DNA from: Posidoniimonas corsicana
GTDB lineage: Bacteria; Planctomycetota; Planctomycetia; Pirellulales; Lacipirellulaceae
DNA length: 64,000 bases
Reading direction: 5' to 3'
Assembly (NCBI RefSeq): GCF_007859765.1
Contig: NZ_SIHJ01000001.1
Coordinates: forward strand, 1,694,067-1,758,066
A program made the position numbers and the translations under genes. The notes beneath the pieces are model-generated. The model was not told the DNA's origin and ran no database searches. It saw nothing but the letters and a program-made list of their open reading frames with translations. This document shows positions 12,199 through 61,165 of this stretch, piece by piece (position 1 is the first letter of the stretch; each line of letters begins with the position of its first letter).

Positions 12199-12401
12199 CC
12201 AAGAAGCCTCCGCAAGGTGATGCATGGTTGGTCTGATTCGTGCCCCGAACCGACAGTCGCTTGCCCTACGGCTTGCCGGGATCCAGGTGCCCCGGTCACG
12301 CCGATCTCTCGACGCCCGACTCCACGAGTGTGCTAGAACGCAGCCAGAAGAGCTTGGCTCGCTCAATCTTCCGTTTGATTTCGTGCGCCCGCAGGCGCCG
12401 T

Positions 12402-13109
12402 CTACCGTCGACGACCGACGCCCATGGCGGCTACCGCCAGTCCAAACAACGCCAGGCTGGCAGGTTCCGGAATGGTGTAGATCCGCACCCAGTCGACTTC
12501 AACGTTGAGCCTGTCCGACGATCCAAACACGCTCTGGATCTGAATCTGATTCAATCCCGGGTTGTTCTCGCCGTCGCCGACACCCTGCGAGTTCTGCATG
12601 AACCCAAAGTTTGTCGCGTCCACCGAAATAAGATGGAACTCGCCGTCGTCGGGGATGCTGTTGAGGTCGAAATTGAACTGGTACTCCTCGGCGGTTTGCC
12701 CCAGAACGTCCACGTCGCGGTAGACGGTGTTGATGGTGCCGGCGGCGTTGTTGCCCAGCTTCCTGACTCGCATCTCCCACCAGGAGACCGCTGGGTCGAA
12801 ATCGATCGGCTGCAGGATTACCACGCCCGGCGCGATCTCTACCTGGGGGCCGTAGTCAACGCCGATGCCGCCGAACAACCCGTTGGACCCGTCGTCATCG
12901 GTCTGAACATCGAAGATTAGGCTGTCGGGGCCGTCGGTAATCGCGCCCGCAACGCTCAGGTCGCCGAACGTAAACGACCCGAATCCGTTTTGTGGGTTCG
13001 TCGGGATGGTCTGCTCCGAGAACTCAGCAATCAACACCTGGGCCGAGGCAGGCGACGCGGTGGCCGCCACACCTATGGTGGCCAGCACCGCAGCAATTAG
13101 TCGTTTCAT
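12402..13109 (-). CDS. PEP-CTERM secreted protein, unknown function
   Basis: 235 residues from ATG 13109, with GGAG eight bases upstream. It has a clear signal peptide (MKRLIAAVLATIGVAA to ASAQ) and a single beta-rich domain containing NPQNGFGSFTFGDLSV, DVQTDDDGSNGLFGGIGVDYG and NQIQIQSVFGSSDRLNVEVDWVRIY. The last segment is reminiscent of laminin-G-like or carbohydrate-binding folds. The C-terminus is textbook PEP-CTERM: IPEP, a hydrophobic helix, then RRR. No dockerin is present. The GFGSF motif and the QIQSVF/HIQSAF motif are shared with the next downstream protein, suggesting paralogous domains. It is the first gene of the - strand run that leads to the xylanase. Confidence 0.75.
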   Translation of the reverse strand: MKRLIAAVLATIGVAATASPASAQVLIAEFSEQTIPTNPQNGFGSFTFGDLSVAGAITDGPDSLIFDVQTDDDGSNGLFGGIGVDYGPQVEIAPGVVILQPIDFDPAVSWWEMRVRKLGNNAAGTINTVYRDVDVLGQTAEEYQFNFDLNSIPDDGEFHLISVDATNFGFMQNSQGVGDGENNPGLNQIQIQSVFGSSDRLNVEVDWVRIYTIPEPASLALFGLAVAAMGVGRRR

Positions 13110-13678
13110 GAGGTCACTCCACCAGAAAAGGGTGTCGAATCAAACACACAAACGAGGCGCCATCTACCTATCGTTCCTGGGGTCGTTCATTCGCATTGAC
13201 TTGAGGCTCGTCGGCTTGGGCCGCAGGGCTGCTCAAGTACTTTAGCAACAGCACTCAATCGTCAAGTCCAGACATCTCCTAGTGCGCGGCTCAGCGTCAA
13301 GGATCGCGATCAACCCTCTGCCGACCTAGACAAGGCCTTTGCCCAACCGGGCGGCTGCTTGTGACGAGTTTCAAAACGCAAGAAAAGGGAAGCGGGCGTT
13401 GGACCGTCGTGACCAAGCCGCCTGCTCAGCCGGAATATAGAAGGGCCTTGAGCCAAGGGTCAAGGAAACTAGCGGCGTTTTGCGCAATCGCGGAACCACG
13501 AGGCGCATTCGCAACATTGTTAGTTGAGAAAGCGAAAACACCCTATACCACTGCGTGATTTCATCTGCCTGGTGTTTAGTTTTTGCACTCTCTGCCGCTG
13601 AGAAAACAGTGAAGTGGAACAGACAACGACTAAATGCCGTTGCTCCGCACTTCTTTCCGGTTGCGCCGTTGGAAGTCC
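13110..13678. other. Non-coding interval with a possible bidirectional terminator
   Basis: No convincing coding sequence is present; composition is less GC-rich than the flanks. The arms aaaacacc (13535-13542) and ggtgttt (13571-13577) can pair. On the - strand the right arm is followed by a T-rich run, so this could end the tsaE transcript. A weaker inverted pair, acttgag (13199-13205) and ctcaagt (13232-13238), lies upstream of the PEP-CTERM gene. The promoter of that gene must lie here, but I cannot define it. Confidence 0.4.
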
Positions 13679-14158
13679 CTAAGCGCCGGGTTGGCCGAGA
13701 GAGGCCTTCAATGCGGCCGCGTCTTCGGGGGGCAGGCCTGTGATCGTGACGTGCCGTGACTCGCCGTCGGTCGGCTCGATAGTGATCCGCACCGTGTTGC
13801 TCGGCAGGCAGTTGGCGACCAGGTCGCCCCATTCGACAAACGTCAGGCCGACCCCCTCGAAGTACTCGTCGGGGCCGAGGTTGAGGAACTCGTCGTCGTC
13901 CTTCAGGCGGTACGCGTCGAAGTGGTAGACCGGCCGCGTGCCGGACGTGTACTCGTTGAGCAGCACGAAGGTCGGGCTGGTCACGTCCTCGCGGGGCGTG
14001 CCGAGCGCGGCGGCAACGGCCTGCACCAGTCGGGTCTTGCCGGCGCCGAGCGTGCCGATCAGCGAAATGGTCGTGCCCGCCGGCAGCGTAGCCGCGAGTG
14101 CCTGGCCCAGGCGGTCGGTGTCGGTGAGGGAGTGGATTTCGATCTCGAGCGGATTCAC
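13679..14158 (-). CDS. tsaE: tRNA threonylcarbamoyladenosine biosynthesis ATPase TsaE
   Basis: 159 residues from a GTG start at 14158. TsaE is the ATPase that works with TsaB and TsaD to put threonylcarbamoyl on A37 of ANN-decoding tRNAs in the cytoplasm. The Walker A motif GTLGAGKT is at residues 35-42. The family motif SPTFVLLNEY is at about 61-70, HFDAYRL at 79-85 (conserved Asp81), and FVEWGD at 107-112 in the Walker B position. Length matches the family. It is 45 bases downstream of thiL, forming a likely operon; the two enzymes have no direct metabolic link. Confidence 0.95.
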   Translation of the reverse strand: MNPLEIEIHSLTDTDRLGQALAATLPAGTTISLIGTLGAGKTRLVQAVAAALGTPREDVTSPTFVLLNEYTSGTRPVYHFDAYRLKDDDEFLNLGPDEYFEGVGLTFVEWGDLVANCLPSNTVRITIEPTDGESRHVTITGLPPEDAAALKASLGQPGA

Positions 14159-14203
14159 GGGGGTGTCAACAAGTGGTTGGAGGTTGGTAGTTAGTGGATC
14201 CGG

Positions 14204-15124
14204 CTAGCCATGCCAGAAGCCCGTCGGTTCGAGAGTGGTTGTGTGTCCATCCGCTTCTCGGATCTCCATGCCTGGTCGGGCAGTGACCTCGCCCACGATC
14301 GAAAGGCCGCACTCCACGGGACTCTCGCGGAGCATGGCTTCGGCGGTTTCTCGGGGCGCGGTCAGCAGCAGCTCGAAGTCTTCGCCATCGGACAGCGCGT
14401 GGTGCAGTGGGTCGGTCCCGTCCGCGGCGGCGAGTTGCTGGGCCGCCGGCGAGACGGGTATGGCGGCTGCGTCGAGCAGGGCGCCGCGGCCGCTGGCCGC
14501 GCACAGCCGGCTGAGGTCCAGCGATAGGCCGTCGGTGATGTCCATGCCGGCGTGCAGATCGTACCGCTGGTGGAGCAGCAACGCCTCCGCTACGCGGGGC
14601 GTGAAGTCGAGGTGGCGTCCGGTGATGCTGCCGCCCAGCTCGCCGGTCACGAGGATGGCGTCGCCCGCCCGGGCGTTGCTGCGGAGCAGGGCGCCTCGGT
14701 CGGTCGGTTGGCCAAAGGCGGTGACGCTGACCGTGAGTGGCCCGTCCCAGACGTTGGTGTCGCCGCCAGCGATGATGGTTTCGAACTGCTCGGCCAGCGG
14801 CAGCATGCCGCGGTACAGGCCCTTCGCCAAGGCGAGTGGGTCCGCGTGGCCGCGGGGGAGCATTACCGAAACGACGACCGCCACCGGCTTGGCGGCCATG
14901 GCGGCCAGGTCGCTGAGGTTGGCTGCGAGGCACTTGTGGCCGATCCAGCGTGGCTCGGCCTCGTTGAGCAGGAAGTGCGAGCCGTCGCCGAGCGAGTCGG
15001 TCGTCACGACTAAGTCAGCCGTCTGGCGGAGCGACAGCACAGCGGCGTCGTCGCCCAGCCCGACCCGCAGCAGCGGGTGCGGAGGGAGCGTCTTCTGCAG
15101 CCAGTCAACGAGGTCGCGTTCCAT
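14204..15124 (-). CDS. thiL: Thiamine-monophosphate kinase ThiL
   Basis: 306 residues from ATG 15124. ThiL phosphorylates thiamine monophosphate to thiamine diphosphate, the last step of thiamine cofactor synthesis. PurM-like fold motifs are all visible: GDDAA at 24-28, TTDSLGDG at 41-48 (metal and substrate Asp), NLSDLAAMAA at 69-78, AGGDTNV, a D-I-T-D-G-L-S-L-D-L segment near residue 196, and a late GEDFELL motif. Length is usual for the family. It lies between the HtrA-type protease gene (42-base gap) and tsaE (45-base gap). No TPP riboswitch was recognised nearby. Confidence 0.95.
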   Translation of the reverse strand: MERDLVDWLQKTLPPHPLLRVGLGDDAAVLSLRQTADLVVTTDSLGDGSHFLLNEAEPRWIGHKCLAANLSDLAAMAAKPVAVVVSVMLPRGHADPLALAKGLYRGMLPLAEQFETIIAGGDTNVWDGPLTVSVTAFGQPTDRGALLRSNARAGDAILVTGELGGSITGRHLDFTPRVAEALLLHQRYDLHAGMDITDGLSLDLSRLCAASGRGALLDAAAIPVSPAAQQLAAADGTDPLHHALSDGEDFELLLTAPRETAEAMLRESPVECGLSIVGEVTARPGMEIREADGHTTTLEPTGFWHG

Positions 15125-15166
15125 GCCGCGAGTTTCGCCCGCGGCGGGCCGATGTGCAAGCGGCGT

Positions 15167-16537
15167 CTAGCGGCGGCTGGCGCTCTGCTTGCAGGCGATG
15201 TGGCCAAACAGGGTTTCGCCGTCGCGGAGGATGTAGAACTTGACCGGGCCGCGGGTGGCCAGGTTGGCCCGGGTGGTGATGTAGCGGAGGTCCTGCTCGG
15301 AGGCGGTCTCCCACTCGTGCATGCCGACCAGGATGTCGCCGTCGCGGATGCCCTGCTTAGCGGCGGGGCCGCCGGGCCGCACGTCGACGACCCGCATGCC
15401 GCCGCGGTAGCGGGTGCTGAACTTCTCAAACTCGTCGTCGGGGACCTTGGCCAGGTCCATGCCGAGCAGGTCCCAGGCGAGATCGTCGTGGCGGTCGGCC
15501 GGTTGCGAGGCAACCTGCACGCGGCGGCCACGGGCGGCCAGCGAGAGCGAGACCTCAACCTGCTGGTCGTCGCGGAGCACCTCGACCGGCACCGACTTGC
15601 CGAGCGACGTGCCCAGCAGGGCGAGCTCGATGTCGAGCGGCCGCTGGGTTTCGGAGTTGTTGACGCGACGGATCACGTCGCCGGGACGCAGGCCGCAGGC
15701 AGCCGCGGGGCCGCCGGAGGCGACACGCCGCACCACCAGCCCGGACCCGTCCGGCGTCTGGCCGGCGGTCTCGATGCCGTGCCACTTGTTCTCCATCCGC
15801 TCGATGCTCAGCAGCTCGGCGGTGACGCCGAGGGCGGCGTCGACCGGGATGGCGAAGCCGATGCCCTGGGCCCCGGCCCGCACGGCCACGTTGACGCCGA
15901 TCATCTTGCCCTCGATCGACAGCAGCGGGCCGCCGGAGTTGCCGGGGTTGATGCTGGCGTCGGTCTGGATGAGGTCGTCGTAAGACTGCGTGTCGCTGAC
16001 CTGCACGTCGCGGTGGAGCTGCGAGATGATGCCGCGGGTCACGGTGTGCTCGTAGCCGTACGCGTTGCCGATTGCGATCACCGACTCGCCGGTCATCAGG
16101 TCGCTCGAGGTGCCCAGCGTGATAGTGGGCAGCGGCCGGCCGGCGTTCACCTTGATGACCGCCAGGTCGGTGCGGGCGTCGTGGGCGACTACTTTGGCGA
16201 TGTAGTGTCGCCCGTCGTCTAGCGTGACGTTGATCTGCCGCACCCCGGCGACAACGTGGTGGTTGGTGAGGATGTAGCCCCGCGGGTCGATCACCACCCC
16301 GGTGCCCATGCCGCTGACCTCACGCGACGCCGAGTGCCCGGCGCCGGCGCCGGTCGCGGCGATAACCTTCTGGCCCTGGATGTTGACCACCGACGGCGCG
16401 GCGTCGCGGACCGCTCGGACGACCGGAGTCATCCGCAGGTCCGAGGGCTCCGCAGCCCGCGCCGTGATTGGCGCCGCCAGCAGTGTGACGGCGACCAGGG
16501 ACGCAAGGCGGGCGGCGAAAACAGGTTGGGACTGCAT
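15167..16537 (-). CDS. HtrA/Deg-family serine protease with two PDZ domains
   Basis: 456 residues from ATG 16537, chosen because a signal peptide (MQSQPVFAARLASL to ARAAEP) follows immediately. The trypsin-like S1C domain spans about 35-240. The predicted triad is His94 (TNHHVV), Asp124 (RTDLAVI) and Ser201 (NPGNSGGP). A first PDZ domain lies at about 255-345 (GLVVRRVASGGPAAACGLRPGD). A second spans about 355-450 (GMRVVDVRPGGPAAKQGIRDGD). It would act in the periplasm on misfolded proteins or as a signalling protease. It is upstream of thiL in the same direction. Two PDZ domains make it DegP/DegQ-like rather than DegS-like. Confidence 0.92.
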   Translation of the reverse strand: MQSQPVFAARLASLVAVTLLAAPITARAAEPSDLRMTPVVRAVRDAAPSVVNIQGQKVIAATGAGAGHSASREVSGMGTGVVIDPRGYILTNHHVVAGVRQINVTLDDGRHYIAKVVAHDARTDLAVIKVNAGRPLPTITLGTSSDLMTGESVIAIGNAYGYEHTVTRGIISQLHRDVQVSDTQSYDDLIQTDASINPGNSGGPLLSIEGKMIGVNVAVRAGAQGIGFAIPVDAALGVTAELLSIERMENKWHGIETAGQTPDGSGLVVRRVASGGPAAACGLRPGDVIRRVNNSETQRPLDIELALLGTSLGKSVPVEVLRDDQQVEVSLSLAARGRRVQVASQPADRHDDLAWDLLGMDLAKVPDDEFEKFSTRYRGGMRVVDVRPGGPAAKQGIRDGDILVGMHEWETASEQDLRYITTRANLATRGPVKFYILRDGETLFGHIACKQSASRR

Positions 16538-53574: not shown

Positions 53575-54450
53575 CTAGTGCTGCACCGGTGGGGACGCCG
53601 TCCGGTTGCCGTGCGTTGCCGCCTCGCTCCCCACGTGGAACATGTACGGCGCCTTACCGCCTCCGGCGCGTGACGGTTCGGCGCCGTCGAGCCGCAGGAG
53701 CGAGGCCGAGTCGAGGCGGAGCAGCGAGGCGGCCGGTTCGTCTAGATAGACGGTGACGCTGGGGTGACGACGCAAGGCCGACGCCGGCGCTTGGGCAGTG
53801 ACTTCGCCTTCCAGCGAGGCCCGCACCGCGGCGGCCTTCCGGCGGTCGGGCACGGTGCAGACGATCGACTTGCAGCGGAGGATCTCGGGCACGCTCATGC
53901 TGAGGGCGCGGCTGGGGACGCTCTCCAAGGAGTCGAACCACCCCTCCCGCCACTGCTGGGTACGGCACGCCTCGTCCAGCTCGACCACGAGGAACGGCGA
54001 CTGGCAGTCAAAGTCGGCGGGCGGGTCGTTGAAGGCCAGGTGTCCGTTCTCTCCGATGCCGACGAACGCAACGCAGATCTCTTGCTGAGAGATGATGTCG
54101 CCCAGCCGTTGGCACTCGGCAGCGGGGTCGGCCTCGCCGTTGAGCAGGTGGTACGCCCTCGGAGGAACGGGGAGCTTTGAGATGAACCGCTGCCACAGGT
54201 ACCCGCGGAACGAGGCCGGGTGATTGACGGGCAGGCCGACGTACTCGTCGAGGTGGAAGAGGGTGACGCGGCTCCAGTCGATACCGGGTTCCTCGACTAG
54301 CTGCGCCAGCATCGCGAACTGCGACGCGCCGGTCGCCAGCACGATCGACGCCTCCCCCTGGTCGGCAAGTTCACGCCGGATACGCTCCGCCCCCTCGCGT
54401 GCGGCGGCCACGCCTGCTTCGCTCGCTGCTTCGAATACCTTCACTTCCAT
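53575..54450 (-). CDS. nagB: Glucosamine-6-phosphate deaminase family protein (NagB-like)
   Basis: 291 residues from ATG 54450; longer in-frame starts give only low-complexity Arg-rich sequence. NagB converts glucosamine-6-phosphate to fructose-6-phosphate and ammonia. Asp68 in FHLDEYVGL matches the proton-abstracting Asp72 of E. coli, and His137 in [13 protein letters not shown] matches ring-opening His143. The neighbouring E. coli Asp141 and Glu148 positions are Asn135 and Asp142, as in the GENGH-type subfamily. The last 30 residues contain a duplicated ASLLRLD segment absent from the core family. It follows the phosphatase/TPR gene on the same strand, 135 bases downstream. Confidence 0.85.
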
Positions 54451-54585
54451 CACGCTTCCATCCAATTGAGTACTCGGCGTCACGCCGTGCCTAGTATTGT
54501 CTCTGCCCCGGCGTTCCGATCGCCGACGCCTGCTCATCTTGCCGATTCCCGGCCTGCGCCGGCTGGGCAAGGCTGCACTGGTTCT

Positions 54586-56526
54586 TCATGCCGACTGCTC
54601 CTGGAGCTGGTCGAGTCGACGGGTCGCGTCGCGGTGACGCGGGTCAAGCTTCAGCACCGTTCTCAGCGCCTCCGCAGCCTCGTCGTGGCAACCGAGCTCC
54701 GCCAATGCAACACCGAGCGTGTGGTGTGCGGACAGGAGTTGGGTGTCCAATCCTACCGCCTGCAGGGCGAGGTTGGAGGCCGATTGCCAGTCGCCCTGAT
54801 CGGCCGAAACCTGCGCCAGTCCCGCGAGGGCCAGCGCGTTGTCGGGGTCGGCCTCAAGCACACGCGAATAGGCGGAAACCGCGTCCGATTGCCGGTCGGT
54901 GGCCGCGTAGGCCTGTCCGGCCAGCACCAGAAACGGACCCGAGTCCGCAACGTCGGGGTCGGCGCGGTCGTATATTTCCAACGCCTCGCCGTAGCTGCCT
55001 TGCGACACGCAGAGCTGCATCATCCGGTAGGCCGCGGCGGGCGCCGACGGCGACCGATTGAGAATCCCTCGCAGGATCTGACGGCACTCGTCGAACCTCC
55101 CCAGTCGCAGGCAGCAGTGCGCGAGCTCAACGCGGCACGCCTCCTCCAGCACGGGGGTAAGCTCTGCCTGCTCGAGCAGCTGGCGCCAGGCGGCCGCCGC
55201 CGCCGGCATGTCATTGGCGTCCATCAGCGACAACGCGCGGTTGACCTCCAGCGTGGTTTGCGTGGAGCGGACGGTCGCTACCGTGTCGCTCGATGGCGCC
55301 TCGACGTACCCAAGCGCGACCAGCTGCTGCAGCACGCCCGCAGCGTCCACGGGGTCCATCTCGTAGTCGGGCGGGTGCATCCCGCTGGCACCGTCGACAT
55401 CGTCCCAGCTGGAGATCACTCTAGGGGGCGTGGCGTCGGTTAGCACCTCAAGCCACGGCCGGCCGTCCATGTCGGCGCCGACCGGCAAACCGAGCAGCTT
55501 CAGCACGGTGGGCGTGACGTCCAGCAGGCTCGCGCCGCGCAGCTCCTCGCCCGCCCGAATGCCTGGCCCGGCCGCGCAGACCACGCCCTGCTGGCGGTGC
55601 CAGCTCGTGGGGTTGTCGAAACCATTGGTCCCCGACCGCTGGGCGCCGCTGTGGAAGCCGTGGTCGCTCACCACCAGCACGGTGACGTCGTCGCCCGCCT
55701 GCTGCAGCATGGCGTCGAGCATCATGTCGTGGAACCGGTAGCAGCCGCGCACCACGTCGCGGTAGATCGCGGCGTCGCTTTCCGACACGCCCTCCATCGC
55801 CGGCGGGTGGTAGGGCATGAAGTGGTGCCCCACCTGATCGATCATGTCGAAGTACACCGCCATGAACTCCCACGGCTCGTTGGCCATCAGCGCGCACGCC
55901 GCGGCCTGGACGCTCGCCGTGCGGGCGATCAGCGTCCCCAGTTGCTCTAGTCGGCGATCCGAGTCGGTGTTGATCATCGCCGCGTTGGGGACGAACGGCA
56001 GCAGCACCTCCGCGTCCAGGTCGCGGGGGTCGACTCGAAGGTTCTTCAGCAGCGGCGCCAGCGACGCCGGGTGGCAGGCCTCGGCAGGCAGGCCGTCCGC
56101 GGCGCCGCACAGCGACTCCGGGTGGAGGAAGTAGTCGCTCACCACCGCTCCGCGGATTGGCTCGGCGGGGTGGCTCGCCAGCCAGCCGACCACGTTGGAC
56201 GCTAGGCCGCTCTGCGACAGGATGTTCCAGACCGCCTTGGTGGTGCGGCTCGTGCAGCTTACCGGGCGGACGCCGCTGCCGTCGGGTAGCGGCTCGGTAA
56301 AACCGTACACGCCGTGCTTCGCTGGCCGCTTGCCGGTGGCGATGGAGGTCCACAGCAACGGCGAGAGGATCGGTTGAATCGTGGCGAGGTTGCCACTCGC
56401 TCCCGATTCCATCAGACGCTGCAGCGCAGGCATCTCACCGGCTGCCAGCAGCGGCCGGAGGATCGTCCAGTCCGCTGCGTCCCAGCCGATGAGGAGCACC
56501 TTGTTTGCGCTGCGTGTCATCGCCAT
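54586..56526 (-). CDS. Alkaline-phosphatase-superfamily phosphodiesterase fused to TPR repeats
   Basis: 646 residues from ATG 56526 (ATG 56520 also possible). Residues about 8-380 are a type I phosphodiesterase/nucleotide pyrophosphatase-like domain. All expected metal ligands are present: Asp16 (GWDAADW), nucleophile Thr60 (LLWTS), Asp230 and His234 (DMIDQVGHH), Asp288-His289 (SDHGF) and His310 (TSWHRQ). Residues about 420-640 are TPR repeats (LAHCCLRLGRFDECRQIL, AYAATDRQSDAVSAYSRVLE, ALAGLAQVSADQGDW). No signal peptide is seen. It is probably an active cytoplasmic or membrane-associated hydrolase with a protein-docking tail. A paralogue lacking these ligands lies at 57.6 kb. Confidence 0.88.
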   Translation of the reverse strand: MAMTRSANKVLLIGWDAADWTILRPLLAAGEMPALQRLMESGASGNLATIQPILSPLLWTSIATGKRPAKHGVYGFTEPLPDGSGVRPVSCTSRTTKAVWNILSQSGLASNVVGWLASHPAEPIRGAVVSDYFLHPESLCGAADGLPAEACHPASLAPLLKNLRVDPRDLDAEVLLPFVPNAAMINTDSDRRLEQLGTLIARTASVQAAACALMANEPWEFMAVYFDMIDQVGHHFMPYHPPAMEGVSESDAAIYRDVVRGCYRFHDMMLDAMLQQAGDDVTVLVVSDHGFHSGAQRSGTNGFDNPTSWHRQQGVVCAAGPGIRAGEELRGASLLDVTPTVLKLLGLPVGADMDGRPWLEVLTDATPPRVISSWDDVDGASGMHPPDYEMDPVDAAGVLQQLVALGYVEAPSSDTVATVRSTQTTLEVNRALSLMDANDMPAAAAAWRQLLEQAELTPVLEEACRVELAHCCLRLGRFDECRQILRGILNRSPSAPAAAYRMMQLCVSQGSYGEALEIYDRADPDVADSGPFLVLAGQAYAATDRQSDAVSAYSRVLEADPDNALALAGLAQVSADQGDWQSASNLALQAVGLDTQLLSAHHTLGVALAELGCHDEAAEALRTVLKLDPRHRDATRRLDQLQEQSA

Positions 56527-56553
56527 TGCTGCCGTGCCTTTCGCCTTTGCCGG

Positions 56554-57501
56554 CTAGCCCCGAGTCCAATCGCTGCGGCGGGAACGCCCGCACACGATCA
56601 GCAGCGAGAGAGCCCCGATCGCCAACGCCGTGGGCTCGGGGACGCCGGCGCCGGCTGCGCTAGGCCCGGCCCCGGCGCCGTAGTTTTCTCGCCAGGTCGC
56701 GTACTGCGGCGCACCGATCTCGCCGCCATCGACATCGTTGGGTAGCGTGCCGGCCGGCGCGCCGGTGTTGTCCCGCCAAACGGTGTAGTCGGCCGCGTCG
56801 ACCAGCCCGTCGTCATTGTAGTCGCCGGGCAGGCCCTCGGGGCCGGTGATGCCGTAGATCTCGTCGTAGTAGTAGGCGATGCGGCCCTCGCTCTCCAGCG
56901 TGTTCAGCATGCGGATTTTCAGGAACGCGTTGTTGGCCAGGTCGTTCTCCAGGACCGCGCCGGATTGCACGAAGGCCAGGTCGGCGAACATGACCTCGTA
57001 GGAGTCGTACTCCTCGGTGAGCGTGATCGGCTCGGAGTAGACCTGGAGGCTCTCGTCCTCCCCGATGCCAGGCACCATGAATCCAATGCCCACCTCGACC
57101 GCGAACGGCCCGACGTAGGGCAGGTCGGCGTTGTTCTTGAACTTCATGTCGAGCCTCACGCCGGCGAACTCGGACAGGTCCTTCCGGTAGGGCGTGAACC
57201 GGTCACCGACGTCGACGATTCCCCAGTTGCCCGCCAGGTCGGCGGGCAGGTCGAAGTCGCCGGCGTGGAAGCGGGCGGTCAAACCGGCCGAGGCGTCCGT
57301 CGTGGCGCCGCGGTCGGTCGTAATGGTGCCGAACGAACCCCAGCCGGGCGGCGTGGTCGGGTTGGTGTCCAGGTTGGCTTCACGGTGCTGCTCGTCCGTC
57401 TCAAAGTCGTAGAGCAGCACATCGGCTTCAGACCGCGCGGCGCCGAACAGGACGGTCGCGGTCAGCAAGGTGAGGGGCGCAATAATGCCACGATTCTGCA
57501 T
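56554..57501 (-). CDS. Secreted dockerin/PEP-CTERM protein
   Basis: 315 residues from ATG 57501. The signal peptide (GIIAPLTLLTATVLFGAARSEA) precedes a single beta domain containing YDFETDEQ, PPGWGSFGTITTDRG, FAGVRLDMKFKNN and IAYYYDEIYG, which looks like a carbohydrate-binding sandwich. The GWGSFG motif is shared with proteins at 10.4 and 12.4 kb. A dockerin-like loop DYNDDGLVDAADY and QYATWRENYGA precede VPEP, a hydrophobic helix and a basic end. It lies between the two phosphatase/TPR paralogues, 27 bases from the active one and 63 from the inactive one, so co-expression is likely. Confidence 0.8.
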   Translation of the reverse strand: MQNRGIIAPLTLLTATVLFGAARSEADVLLYDFETDEQHREANLDTNPTTPPGWGSFGTITTDRGATTDASAGLTARFHAGDFDLPADLAGNWGIVDVGDRFTPYRKDLSEFAGVRLDMKFKNNADLPYVGPFAVEVGIGFMVPGIGEDESLQVYSEPITLTEEYDSYEVMFADLAFVQSGAVLENDLANNAFLKIRMLNTLESEGRIAYYYDEIYGITGPEGLPGDYNDDGLVDAADYTVWRDNTGAPAGTLPNDVDGGEIGAPQYATWRENYGAGAGPSAAGAGVPEPTALAIGALSLLIVCGRSRRSDWTRG

Positions 57502-57564
57502 CGGTAGGTTTCCTGGTAAGTCGTGGGTTCGGTCTGCTTGCTAGTTCGCCTGTGTTGTGTCGGG

Positions 57565-59364
57565 CTAAACGCCCGCCAGCTCTCGGTGTCGCACCGCCAT
57601 TGCCGCATCCCGTTTGGCGTACAGGCCGGCGAGGTGCGAGTGGGCGTCGCTGGTTCGCCACTGGTCGCGTAGGCACCGCTCGAACTCGGGGATCGCTTCC
57701 CGCTCGCGGCCCGCACGGTGTAACGCCTCGGCGAGCAGGAATCGTGCCTCGGCGTACGCCGGGGCGATCGCGAGGGCCTTGCGGGCCTCGGCGGCGGTTT
57801 GCTCGGCGTCGTCACGCTGCCACCACACGCGTGCCAGCCCGACATGGGCGGCGGCGTTGCCTGACGCGATCTCGATCGCGCGGCGCAGCGCCGCCTCGGC
57901 GGCGTCGGGGTGACCGCACTCCAGCAGCACGCTGGCGGCCTCGCCGAGCGTGTGCGGGTCTGCTTCGCGTCGGGCGGATAGCTCCATCGCAAGGGCGGAG
58001 GCCTCTGCGATGTCCTTGCTGGCGAGCGCCAACCGCGTAAGCAGCAGCTGCACCTCCACGCCCTCACGCTCGGACTTCGGCAGACGCTCGATCACACCGC
58101 GGCATTCGTCCAGGCGCCGGTCACGAAGCAGGCAGCTCGCCAGGTTGACCCCGTAGGCCGGCTCCGCTGGGCGTTCTTCCCAGAGCGTCCGCCAACACGC
58201 GATGGCGTCGGTGACACGGTTGCTGTCGTGCAGCGCGTGCGCCAGATTGAGCCGCTGGTTCCAACGCACCAGTTCCAGCTGAGACTCGTCGGCGGAGACC
58301 ACCTCTGGAGCAACCTCGAAGGAACTCCTCCGGCATTCGGCGCCACGCGGCGCGTCGGCGGCGGCATCGCGCGGGGTGAGATCGTAGGGGGATCGGCGGT
58401 CGGCGGCTTCCTGGCAGAGCATGTCGCTGAGCACGCGGCCGTCTGCGGCGGAGTCGGGCTTCAACCGCAAGAGCCGTCGCACCGTCGGGGCGATGTCGAG
58501 GATTGTCGCGCCGTAGACCTGTCGCTCGGGCTCGATGCTCGGCCCCACCGCCGCCAGGATGCCCATCTGAGCAAGCGGCGTCGACGCGCCGGCGTCGCCG
58601 CACGGGCTGGCGACGATCAAGTTAACCGCCTCACCCGCGGCAGACATCAGCTCAGCGAGCATCGCGTCGAGAAGACGCCAGGCGGACCGCGTGAGCTCAG
58701 CCCGCGTCAACGGATTCGGTGAGCAGTCAACCAGCTCTTGTACGGCGGGGTAGCATACCGCCGCCAGACGCCAGGGCTGTTCCTCGACTAAGCCGCAGGC
58801 GACCGAATGGACGTGGCACAATGCGTCGAGCACCCGCCCGAAGCGCTCGTCCGCGGAGTCTCCTGCCGCGCAGCGGCATTCGATGACGTGCTTGGCGAGG
58901 CGACCGTTCGTGTATTGAGAGTCGCGGCGAGCCTGCGTCGCTGAATGAATTTGGCGGAAGTACTCGTCGCTGGCGACGAAAGCGTGCGGTTGCTCCCCAC
59001 CAGCCGTTGCGGGCCAATTGACGACAACGGAACTCTGTTTGTCGGTCGACAACGCGTTCCAAACGGTCGGCCGTCGGACCTGTGCGGCCGCCACGCGGGA
59101 CAATCCCGTCCCTTCATCCGTGGGCTCGAAGAAGCTGCAGACGCCGTGTTTGTCGGCCCGCGTACCGGTGGACAGCGAGGTCCACAGCATGGGCGGCACG
59201 CAGGGCTTTATAGGGGCCAGGTTGCCCCACGCGCCCGCCGTCCGCAGGGCGTTCAGGGCCGGCATGGCGCCGGCGTCAAGCAGCGGCTGAAGCGCCTGCC
59301 AGTTGGCGCCGGCCCACCCCACCAGGAGCACTTTACGCTGTGTTGAGCTGCTCGTCGGCGCCAT
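57565..59364 (-). CDS. Phosphatase/TPR paralogue lacking metal ligands (predicted pseudoenzyme)
   Basis: 599 residues from ATG 59364. It aligns over its whole length with the protein at 54.6 kb: VLLVGWAGANW for LLIGWDAADW, PPMLWTSLSTGTRADKHGV for the Thr60 region, GATILDIAPTVRRLL for the end of the phosphatase domain, then TPR repeats (ASCLLRDRRLDECRGVIERL, ARVWWQRDDAEQTAAEA). The nucleophile Thr62 is kept. The Asp16 position is Ala, the DMIDQVGHH block is PAVQELVDC, SDHGF is SPCGD, and the last His is absent. The frame is intact with no stops, so this is a maintained but probably inactive protein, perhaps a binding or regulatory subunit. Confidence 0.85.
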   Translation of the reverse strand: MAPTSSSTQRKVLLVGWAGANWQALQPLLDAGAMPALNALRTAGAWGNLAPIKPCVPPMLWTSLSTGTRADKHGVCSFFEPTDEGTGLSRVAAAQVRRPTVWNALSTDKQSSVVVNWPATAGGEQPHAFVASDEYFRQIHSATQARRDSQYTNGRLAKHVIECRCAAGDSADERFGRVLDALCHVHSVACGLVEEQPWRLAAVCYPAVQELVDCSPNPLTRAELTRSAWRLLDAMLAELMSAAGEAVNLIVASPCGDAGASTPLAQMGILAAVGPSIEPERQVYGATILDIAPTVRRLLRLKPDSAADGRVLSDMLCQEAADRRSPYDLTPRDAAADAPRGAECRRSSFEVAPEVVSADESQLELVRWNQRLNLAHALHDSNRVTDAIACWRTLWEERPAEPAYGVNLASCLLRDRRLDECRGVIERLPKSEREGVEVQLLLTRLALASKDIAEASALAMELSARREADPHTLGEAASVLLECGHPDAAEAALRRAIEIASGNAAAHVGLARVWWQRDDAEQTAAEARKALAIAPAYAEARFLLAEALHRAGREREAIPEFERCLRDQWRTSDAHSHLAGLYAKRDAAMAVRHRELAGV

Positions 59365-59493: not shown

Positions 59494-60282
59494 CTAGGCC
59501 GCCGCCCGCTTGCGTTTAGCGGCCAGGCCGAGGCCGCCGAAACCGGCGGCCAGCAACGCCAGCGAGCTCGCCTCGGGGACCACGCCCGCGACGATCGCGA
59601 CGTCCGGCTCGCTCTGGTAGGCGTACTCGTGCAGCACGGCGGTGTACTGAGCGGGCGAACCGCCGTCGTTGAAGGTCGTCAGGCGGCCCCAGCCGTAGTG
59701 GATCTCGCCGTTGATGTTGAGGCCAAACCCCCAGTACTGCGGCTCCGAGTCGTTCCGGAAGTTGCTCGTGTTGGTCGAGACAATGCCGGTGTAGTTGGGG
59801 TAGGCGCCGTTGAGCGGCTGCTGGGCGCCGGGGCCGATCACATCGCCCGACTGGAACGAGCGGATGTAGTAGGGGTTCCCGTTCTCGGTGTTCGTGTAGT
59901 TCTGTGACAGCTCGTCGAGCGGCAGGCGGGCCTCCGGCGCGAACAGGGGATTGCCGAACACCGACATCCGCACGCCGCTGTAGGACAGCGTCGCCTGGCC
60001 GAACACAAAGTCGACCGTGCCGTTGGTGTCGAGGTCGAGGTCGGTGAAGGAACCCGCCTCGTTGTGGGCGATGCCGTCGCCAAGGTCGACGTGCACGATC
60101 GCCGCTTCGGCCGTCTGGCCCATCGAGAACGCCCCCAGACCGGCCGCCGCGGTGTAGCTAGCCAGCCGCTTGCTGTAGTCGGCGTACGACGCGCAGTGGG
60201 CGGTGATCGCGTCCCAGTAGGAGGGGCGGGCGTGGCCCGCTGGGCTGGTGGTCAGATGCTCGTCGGAGGGTGTCTTCGGCAT
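59494..60282 (-). CDS. PEP-CTERM protein
   Basis: 262 residues from ATG 60282; the longer frame upstream has no signal logic. The N-terminus is atypical: about 30 polar residues, then SYADYSKRLASYTAAAGLGAFSMGQTAEAA, a late export segment as seen in several planctomycete PEP-CTERM proteins. One domain follows (IVHVDLGDGIAHNEAGSFTDLDLDTNGTVDFVFG, with Asp-rich loops; QYWGFGLNINGEIHYGWGRL). The tail VVPEASSLALLAAGF...AKRKRAAA is a variant PEP-CTERM (PEA). Function unknown; it resembles secreted proteins with calcium-like DLDTNG loops. Confidence 0.7.
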   Translation of the reverse strand: MPKTPSDEHLTTSPAGHARPSYWDAITAHCASYADYSKRLASYTAAAGLGAFSMGQTAEAAIVHVDLGDGIAHNEAGSFTDLDLDTNGTVDFVFGQATLSYSGVRMSVFGNPLFAPEARLPLDELSQNYTNTENGNPYYIRSFQSGDVIGPGAQQPLNGAYPNYTGIVSTNTSNFRNDSEPQYWGFGLNINGEIHYGWGRLTTFNDGGSPAQYTAVLHEYAYQSEPDVAIVAGVVPEASSLALLAAGFGGLGLAAKRKRAAA

Positions 60283-61165
60283 TGGTTCGGCTCGCAGTAG
60301 AAGAAAGTGAATGGGATAACGCCCGGGTATCGCACCTCGCCTTTCGCGCGTCCAAGCCGCCTCGGGGTGTGCAGCAGCAAACGCCCCGATTCGCTGGACT
60401 CCTATCCGCCCTATCCGAGCCCGCCGCCAGTCAAGCAACCGCACCAACAAGAGTCCTGTGCGATCTGCCACGCTCGCTCAACCGGCGTTTCGCCCGTGAT
60501 TCGGCGGGAAGACCTAACGCTCGACAACCTTCCCCCCGCAGGCCTAATGTATACACTAAGGCAATCTGGATGCAATGCAATTCTGGGGCGCACGACGGAT
60601 TTCGACCCGCCGGCGTCCCCCGGATAGCCGCGGCTGCCCCGGGCGCCGTGACCGTTGCTTCAGCGATAACGCCCACAGGGGAATGGAGGCGCTGAGCGAG
60701 AAGCTGGGTGGGCGCAGACGATACATGGCTGGATCGCAGATGGAGCACGGCGTTCAGGTGAGAAGCGCCCGACCGCTGGCTGTCCAGAATCCAGCGGCTG
60801 TCGCCGATGGTTGCGCAGGGGGATTCTTGTGGGAACCGGCCACTTGGTGTGGTTTAATGGCATGTGAACTTACGTACACGCATCCAGGGAAGGCCCACCG
60901 CGGCAGCGGGCGGGCCCGGTTGCTGCTGCGCTGTTGGGTGAGCGGCCGCTCGCGTGGTTGATTTGGTCCGCTGTGTCCCGTTTCGCGGCGGCGATCGGAC
61001 AAAACCCTGGCGCCTGTTTCGGAGGCAGGCACCGTATGACATTGATCTACAAGCACTTACGAAGACCAAGGCGAAGATAGGCGCCGAGTTTTGTCCCCTC
61101 CACGCGTGTTTTTGGACAAAACGAATCGGTCAAAACCCAGGCCGGCGGGGGTGCGAGGGCGCCAG

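Follow-up and report, generated by a model that had tools for sequence, protein, structure and literature searches.

Why would a bacterium retain, beside an apparently complete phosphatase, a full-length copy of it stripped of its catalytic residues? The question is raised by two genes, here called A and B, on the minus strand of a 64,000-nucleotide stretch of the Posidoniimonas corsicana genome (contig NZ_SIHJ01000001.1, positions 1,694,067 to 1,758,066; hereafter the window). Both encode an alkaline phosphatase superfamily (AlkP) domain followed by a tail of tetratricopeptide repeats (TPR). A first-pass annotation, made from the letters of the window alone, placed both intact reading frames correctly and described B as a full-length paralogue of A. 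Our comparison agrees: the two proteins are 29% identical over their full length, and both match PF01663 (101 bits for A and 48 bits for B, cut-off 23) and TPR families in the profile scan. A gene for a secreted protein, D, lies between them, and a gene for another small secreted protein, S, adjoins B. Our tentative answer, to which we give a probability of about 0.48, is that the TPR tail of this protein family handles S, that catalysis is optional, and that B would be a retained non-catalytic TPR adaptor.

Catalytic residues of A and B

The AlkP site of A is complete, and all seven of its residues are replaced in B (7/7 against 0/7). Relative to A, Asp16 is changed to Ala18, Asp230 to Gln209, His234 to Asp213, Asp288 to Pro254, His289 to Cys255 and His310 to Leu264, and the nucleophile Ser55 corresponds to Pro57. 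The first-pass annotation had named the same six ligands of A and their replacements in B correctly, and had taken Thr60 of A as the seventh residue, kept as Thr in B. This last part does not stand. We aligned a profile of A and four relatives to PDB structures; the matches are weak (E 0.007 to 0.04, best 0.0068). They pair Ser55 with a Thr both in phosphonoacetate hydrolase (a Thr in 3szy and an Ala in 3t02) and in the nucleotide pyrophosphatase/phosphodiesterase (NPP) Xac NPP, where it belongs to the stretch TFPNHYTLVTG. Thr60 meets Leu or Tyr in this alignment, and many relatives whose site is complete have Asn in its place; it was rejected as the nucleophile. Because the nucleophile is Ser55, which is Pro57 in B, the loss in B extends to all seven residues.

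The assignment with Ser55 is conserved: the complete D-S/T-D-H-D-H-H set is present in 128 of 152 aligned homologues from many phyla, a count that leaves out four loci fetched twice, one cut-off gene and one unaligned row, and in which a few rows are a single gene present in two collections. The structure models of A and B have mean confidence scores (pLDDT) of 89.6 and 83.2, and Foldseek relates them to Xac NPP with E values of 1.3e-8 for A and 4.1e-9 for B, the alignment input for B having included active copies. In the adaptor reading A would still hydrolyse some phosphate ester or diester. B, judged by its sequence, is a pseudoenzyme, with the catalytic residues lost and the reading frame and predicted fold intact. 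Proteins of this kind are probably cytoplasmic, because the first strand in the model of A already begins at residue 9 and leaves no room for a signal peptide.

Age and retention of the pair

The arrangement recurs in a genome that we assign by inference to Botrimarina (G006), where S, a degenerate copy B' (2/7 residues), D', A' (7/7), a NagB-like and a NagA-like gene follow one another in the same order as in the window. Synonymous divergence is similar across the five genes shared by the two loci, 0.89 to 1.27. Two genomes of another genus, G023 and G034, each have an A orthologue and, some 5 kb beyond it, a degenerate copy that keeps 3/7 residues. Our searches covered 43 genomes of the family Lacipirellulaceae (Pirellulales) and 396 genomes of the order. 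The A/B pair is present in four of the five genomes with an A-clade gene, or 4 of the 43 family genomes, and these four belong to three genera. The absence from all relatives that would have marked recent decay in the first-pass annotation is thus not what we find.

In a mixture-model tree calculated with the catalytic columns removed, B and B' are joined by the 3/7 copies from G023 and G034 in a single clade (100/95), which sits beside the five-row A clade (85/63, weak) and inside a supported 16-row clade (99/95). A first FastTree tree had placed B and B' beside copies from family f3 without support (0.246), a placement that we rejected, as the mixture-model tree puts them next to A. In the tree two long branches, those of B and B', come together, and their orthology is therefore taken to rest on synteny. 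The synteny with G006 and the B clade lead us to reject recent decay of B. The tree, with its weak support at this node, is consistent with B having arisen from an A-like enzyme by a single old duplication. The sequences support B as an old, retained pseudoenzyme. To this extent the first-pass proposal holds, in four genomes of three genera, and B may be maintained by selection.

The 3/7 copies of G023 and G034 (L040:10529-12493 and L041:9768-11723) differ by a dS of 0.29, and the active copies at the same loci by 1.32. The low value may reflect recent transfer or conversion.

The same comparisons bear on the view that B is a slowly dying duplicate, its frame kept intact by GC-rich DNA and weak constraint and without a present function. 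Several features that this view would explain also weigh against a retained adaptor. The branches leading to B and B' are long (1.43 and 1.80, against 0.23 and 0.25 for A and A'), B having changed six to seven times faster. For B/B' dN/dS comes to 0.54, at a divergence near saturation, and for A/A' to 0.37; in G023/G034 the degenerate pair has 0.28 and the active pair 0.10. B is absent from the window's genus-mate G001 (97% complete), in which A is present. A dying duplicate would also fit the graded loss of residues within the B clade (3/7, 3/7, 2/7 and 0/7). On the other side, a stop-free frame of the length of B has a probability of about 4e-6 in random sequence of its composition, and gene order and frame have been held over a synonymous divergence near 1. 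The TPR tail of B is as well conserved as that of A (identities of 0.42 and 0.40 between the window and G006; the corresponding AlkP domains have 0.37 for B and 0.70 for A). We consider a dying duplicate unlikely.

Far less probable still is that the active site of B has acquired new chemistry or ligand binding through other residues. The replacements include the potentially reactive Cys255 and Asp213, and the AlkP fold of B is predicted to be intact. However, B' differs from B at six of the seven places, the two having in common only the Pro at the place of Asp288. The four B-type proteins are all identical at 109 positions, only one of which differs from a residue common to all five A-type proteins, and this single B-type-specific change (Thr422, Val in the B-type) lies in the TPR part.

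Degenerate copies, the TPR tail and the secreted protein S

On the stretches fetched from Pirellulales we detected 23 degenerate AlkP-TPR rows (0 to 6 of the 7 residues), which is not a census, as part of the order-wide matches was fetched and a distant 6/7 row, L149, was excluded. The mixture-model tree requires at least four changes between the complete and the degenerate state. A single loss for all 23 rows was rejected: the approximately unbiased (AU) test speaks against one clade at p 0.025, which is modest given the long branches involved. Purifying selection is visible in five related degenerate pairs, with dN/dS of 0.074, 0.22, 0.28, 0.18 (dS 1.8) and 0.19 (dS 1.3); in one more pair the divergence was saturated. 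From the dN/dS of degenerate and active pairs, the constraint on the dead copies is therefore real, and weaker than that on active ones in the two direct comparisons.

In genus g16 of family f3 (L155, L156, L148, L159, L160, L161) and in L147, AlkP-TPR genes have 0 to 2 of the 7 residues and no S match, and the closest pair among them gives the dN/dS of 0.074. The g16 genomes have one AlkP-TPR match each in the order search, and no complete copy was found there. By eye, the degenerate genes of L155 and L156 adjoin TPR proteins and VCBS-like proteins.

The distribution of these copies also speaks to the possibility, raised in the first-pass annotation, that B is a dedicated partner of A, as one half of a heterodimer, an activator or a substrate-presenting subunit, the active and dead proteins forming one functional unit. 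In each of the four genomes in which a B-clade copy occurs, an A-clade copy lies 1.0 to 5.5 kb away, and a tandem pair of a 7/7 and a 0/7 AlkP-TPR gene occurs in G263. G022 and G031 each encode an active protein of 474-477 aa whose TPR part is a mere stump, next to one with fewer residues (6/7 and 5/7) and a full tail, a split that resembles a division of labour. Solitary copies point the other way: the degenerate genes of L139-L142, L151 and L158 have no complete AlkP-TPR gene on the fetched stretch, three genomes that are 92-95% complete (G002, G007 and G012) carry a TPR-only copy and no AlkP-TPR match, and G001 has A without B. We regard a dedicated partnership as rather unlikely. It is possible that B regulates A, with which the persistence of the pair and the split in G022 and G031 are compatible; such a role would not be general, because solitary dead copies exist.

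The usual companion of the AlkP-TPR family appears to be S, whose conserved N-terminal segment surrounds a Tyr that is invariant in 20 aligned members. In seven S proteins scanned with Pfam and NCBIfam models, no model matched this segment and only C-terminal signals were recovered, PEP-CTERM in planctomycetes and a type IX secretion system (T9SS) tail in the Bacteroidota locus L115. All 22 family genomes with an AlkP-TPR gene also carry S, which is found without AlkP-TPR in five. Within the family, S lies no further than 3 kb from 38 of 42 AlkP-TPR genes (matches of at least 219 bits, weaker partial matches being excluded), against none of the 14 AlkP genes of the L050-L056 group, which were counted apart. 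The four exceptions include A (3.4 kb) and A' (3.8 kb), with B and D in between. Looking from S, 76 of 88 matches are within 3 kb of an AlkP-TPR gene (59) or a TPR-only gene (17), and 12 are near neither. The S profile had been built up in repeated rounds from the multi-phylum loci considered next, with no use of gene positions, and a planctomycete-only profile served as control. In a multi-phylum set, S is on the same strand within 1.5 kb for 57 of 82 genes, or 41 of 82 with the planctomycete-only profile; the set comprises the best 80 of 523 loci, chosen by conserved motifs and leaning to canonical copies, with several loci from the window's own family and many stretches that end near the gene. 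Among the degenerate genes, 11 of 23, including B, have S within 200 bp. The link to surface proteins suggested in the first-pass annotation is thereby borne out more broadly than proposed, through S.

Two arrangements were seen beside these. In the Bacteroidota loci L115 and L135, at about 12400-15300, three consecutive S genes follow one AlkP-TPR gene, and the one checked has a T9SS tail. The L050-L056 stretches hold tandem pairs of complete AlkP genes of about 565-660 aa with a Thr nucleophile and, in the 10 scanned, no TPR; this is the only kind of AlkP gene in G012.

Nine S loci without an AlkP domain carry instead the TPR tail with its linker alone; TPR-only genes were searched for only beside S, so that their S linkage is by construction. 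The AlkP-TPR proteins best matched by the TPR-only profile are three degenerate ones (194 to 207 bits), above any complete one (133 bits). The ratio of TPR to AlkP identity has a median of 0.98 in 11 degenerate pairs against 0.75 in 20 canonical pairs (one-sided p 0.0055, or 0.0022 without five pairs of AlkP identity of at least 0.9), the pairs having been picked by hand from the tree and some sharing a row. S covaries with the TPR tail when the AlkP domain is accounted for: the partial Mantel values, which are correlations on related sequences, are 0.33 in 64 canonical loci and 0.69 in 11 degenerate loci. With the AlkP domain, given the TPR tail, the value in degenerate loci is -0.12. Most likely, the TPR tail would bind S in the cytoplasm before or during its export, perhaps through the conserved N-terminal segment. 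The phosphatase chemistry would be an add-on, kept by A and lost by B.

To the points against an adaptor that were met with the dying duplicate, several others must be added. The predicted AlkP fold of B is not independent evidence, because the alignment behind its model contained active copies. Four of the 11 degenerate pairs have TPR/AlkP ratios of 0.68-0.81, within the canonical range. In canonical loci S covaries with the AlkP domain too (0.18), and the Mantel permutations leave shared ancestry in. No S was found for 25 of the 82 multi-phylum genes (41 of 82 with the planctomycete-only profile). The S linkage of degenerate genes is not universal: 9 of the 23, from families f3 and f7, have no S on the stretch, and for another three it is 2.2-3.3 kb away. 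Finally, the window has a single S for its two AlkP-TPR genes, and this S adjoins B and not A.

A broader proposal, which we think doubtful, is that S and the AlkP-TPR proteins constitute an export or quality-control system of several bacterial phyla without an earlier description. In such a system a cytoplasmic TPR protein would recognise a surface protein by a dedicated segment at its N-terminus. The sorting tail at the C-terminus of the surface protein varies between phyla, being of the PEP-CTERM kind in planctomycetes and of the T9SS kind in the one Bacteroidota member checked. The phosphatase fused to the TPR protein would be dispensable, having been switched off or deleted more than once, and B would be one such switched-off adaptor.

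Surrounding genes and comparison with known systems

The locus consists of five codirectional genes, S, B, D, A and a NagB-like gene, separated by gaps of 129, 63, 27 and 15 bp (Table 1). A scan for promoters and terminators gave no signal above chance. The true start of S probably lies inside the annotated open reading frame. S scores 20.7 bits with PF07589, exactly at the Pfam cut-off of 20.7, and 15.5 with the NCBIfam PEP-CTERM model (cut-off 16).

Table 1. Positions of the genes and gene parts at the A/B locus, numbered from the first letter of the window
Feature	Position	Strand	Description
S	59494..60471	-	Secreted PEP-CTERM protein; member and seed of the S profile; whole-genome match; 129 bp upstream of B
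S, conserved N-terminal segment	within 59878-60195		KRLASYTAAAGLGAF..AEAAIVHVD
B	57565..59364	-	Degenerate AlkP-TPR protein, 0/7 catalytic residues, TPR tail intact
D	56554..57501	-	Secreted; by eye, C-terminus resembles dockerin and PEP-CTERM ends; the G006 orthologue lies between B' and A'
D, rare N-terminal domain	56857-57444	-	
A	54586..56526	-	AlkP-TPR protein, complete site D16, S55, D230, H234, D288, H289, H310
NagB-like (Glucosamine_iso)	53575..54570	-	15 bp after A; PF01182, 69.5 bits

The first-pass annotation described D as a dockerin/PEP-CTERM protein encoded between A and B. The position is correct and the C-terminus has this appearance by eye; no dockerin, PEP-CTERM or other model matched D in the Pfam and NCBIfam scan, and its G006 orthologue stays below the NCBIfam cut-offs (14.9 vs 16 and 11.2 vs 29). 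The leader of D is more hydrophobic than that of S (mean over 17 residues 1.9 to 2.0, n=2, vs 0.8 to 1.65, n=7). The N-terminal domain of D was matched in 6 of the 396 order genomes, in five of them with a copy no more than about 3 kb from an AlkP-TPR gene belonging to the 16-row clade of A; the sixth, G390, has a weak match and no AlkP-TPR match in the order search. D is thus non-randomly placed near the wider clade of A, and it occurs without B in G015, G028 and G062, with a further copy elsewhere in the genome of G028. D as a partner of B was rejected, as D follows the clade holding A. The C-terminus of D is a generic module, with at least 52 candidates matched in several family genomes, its own included. 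In place of D, A is followed in G001, G023 and G034 by another protein that by eye looks dockerin/PEP-CTERM-like (L046:7610-8932, L040:5297-6544 and L041:5197-6468).

The NagB-like gene also follows A' in G006, and related genes are present in 39 of the 43 family genomes. A link was rejected, as the window and G006 are the only places where a NagB-like gene adjoins an A gene.

Dead enzymes that serve as adaptors are known, and pseudophosphatases have been reviewed (PMC8269279, PMC8622459). In the titles and abstract openings found by searching open-access papers we met no account of S, of AlkP-TPR pairs or of dead AlkP-TPR proteins, and within the literature so covered the graded loss of a catalytic site in AlkP-TPR proteins linked with a secreted partner appears to be new. 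The family forms a natural series from active through partly dead and fully dead proteins to forms that lack the domain, many of them encoded next to a similar partner gene, and the series may show what an enzyme family does apart from catalysis. It also links an AlkP-TPR family for which we found no described function with one particular secreted partner, and so yields a functional hypothesis open to test.

A shares the fold and all seven residues with NPP and phosphonoacetate hydrolase (PF01663). It differs from these enzymes in its TPR tail, the lack of an apparent signal peptide and the linked S gene, and B differs further in having none of the seven residues; with the NCBIfam model PhnA, A scores 17 against a cut-off of 407. 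PrsT of the XrtA/PEP-CTERM system (TIGR02917) likewise places TPR repeats in a PEP-CTERM setting. PrsT is not known to have an AlkP domain, and the scores of A (48 bits) and B (67 bits) are far below the cut-off of 312. The type III chaperones SycD and LcrH are TPR proteins, too, and hold their secreted partner until it is exported. They give weak scores here (22-23 against a cut-off of 104.8), and our case differs in that no type III system is implied, an AlkP domain is fused to the repeats, and the partner has a PEP-CTERM or T9SS tail. An adaptor role of B would also resemble that of pseudophosphatases such as STYX and MK-STYX, in which a dead phosphatase fold is kept as a binding protein. 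They have the unrelated fold of the protein tyrosine phosphatase (PTP) family and act in eukaryotic signalling, whereas the fold here is the metal-dependent one of AlkP, the proteins are bacterial, and the loss is graded down to the TPR tail only.

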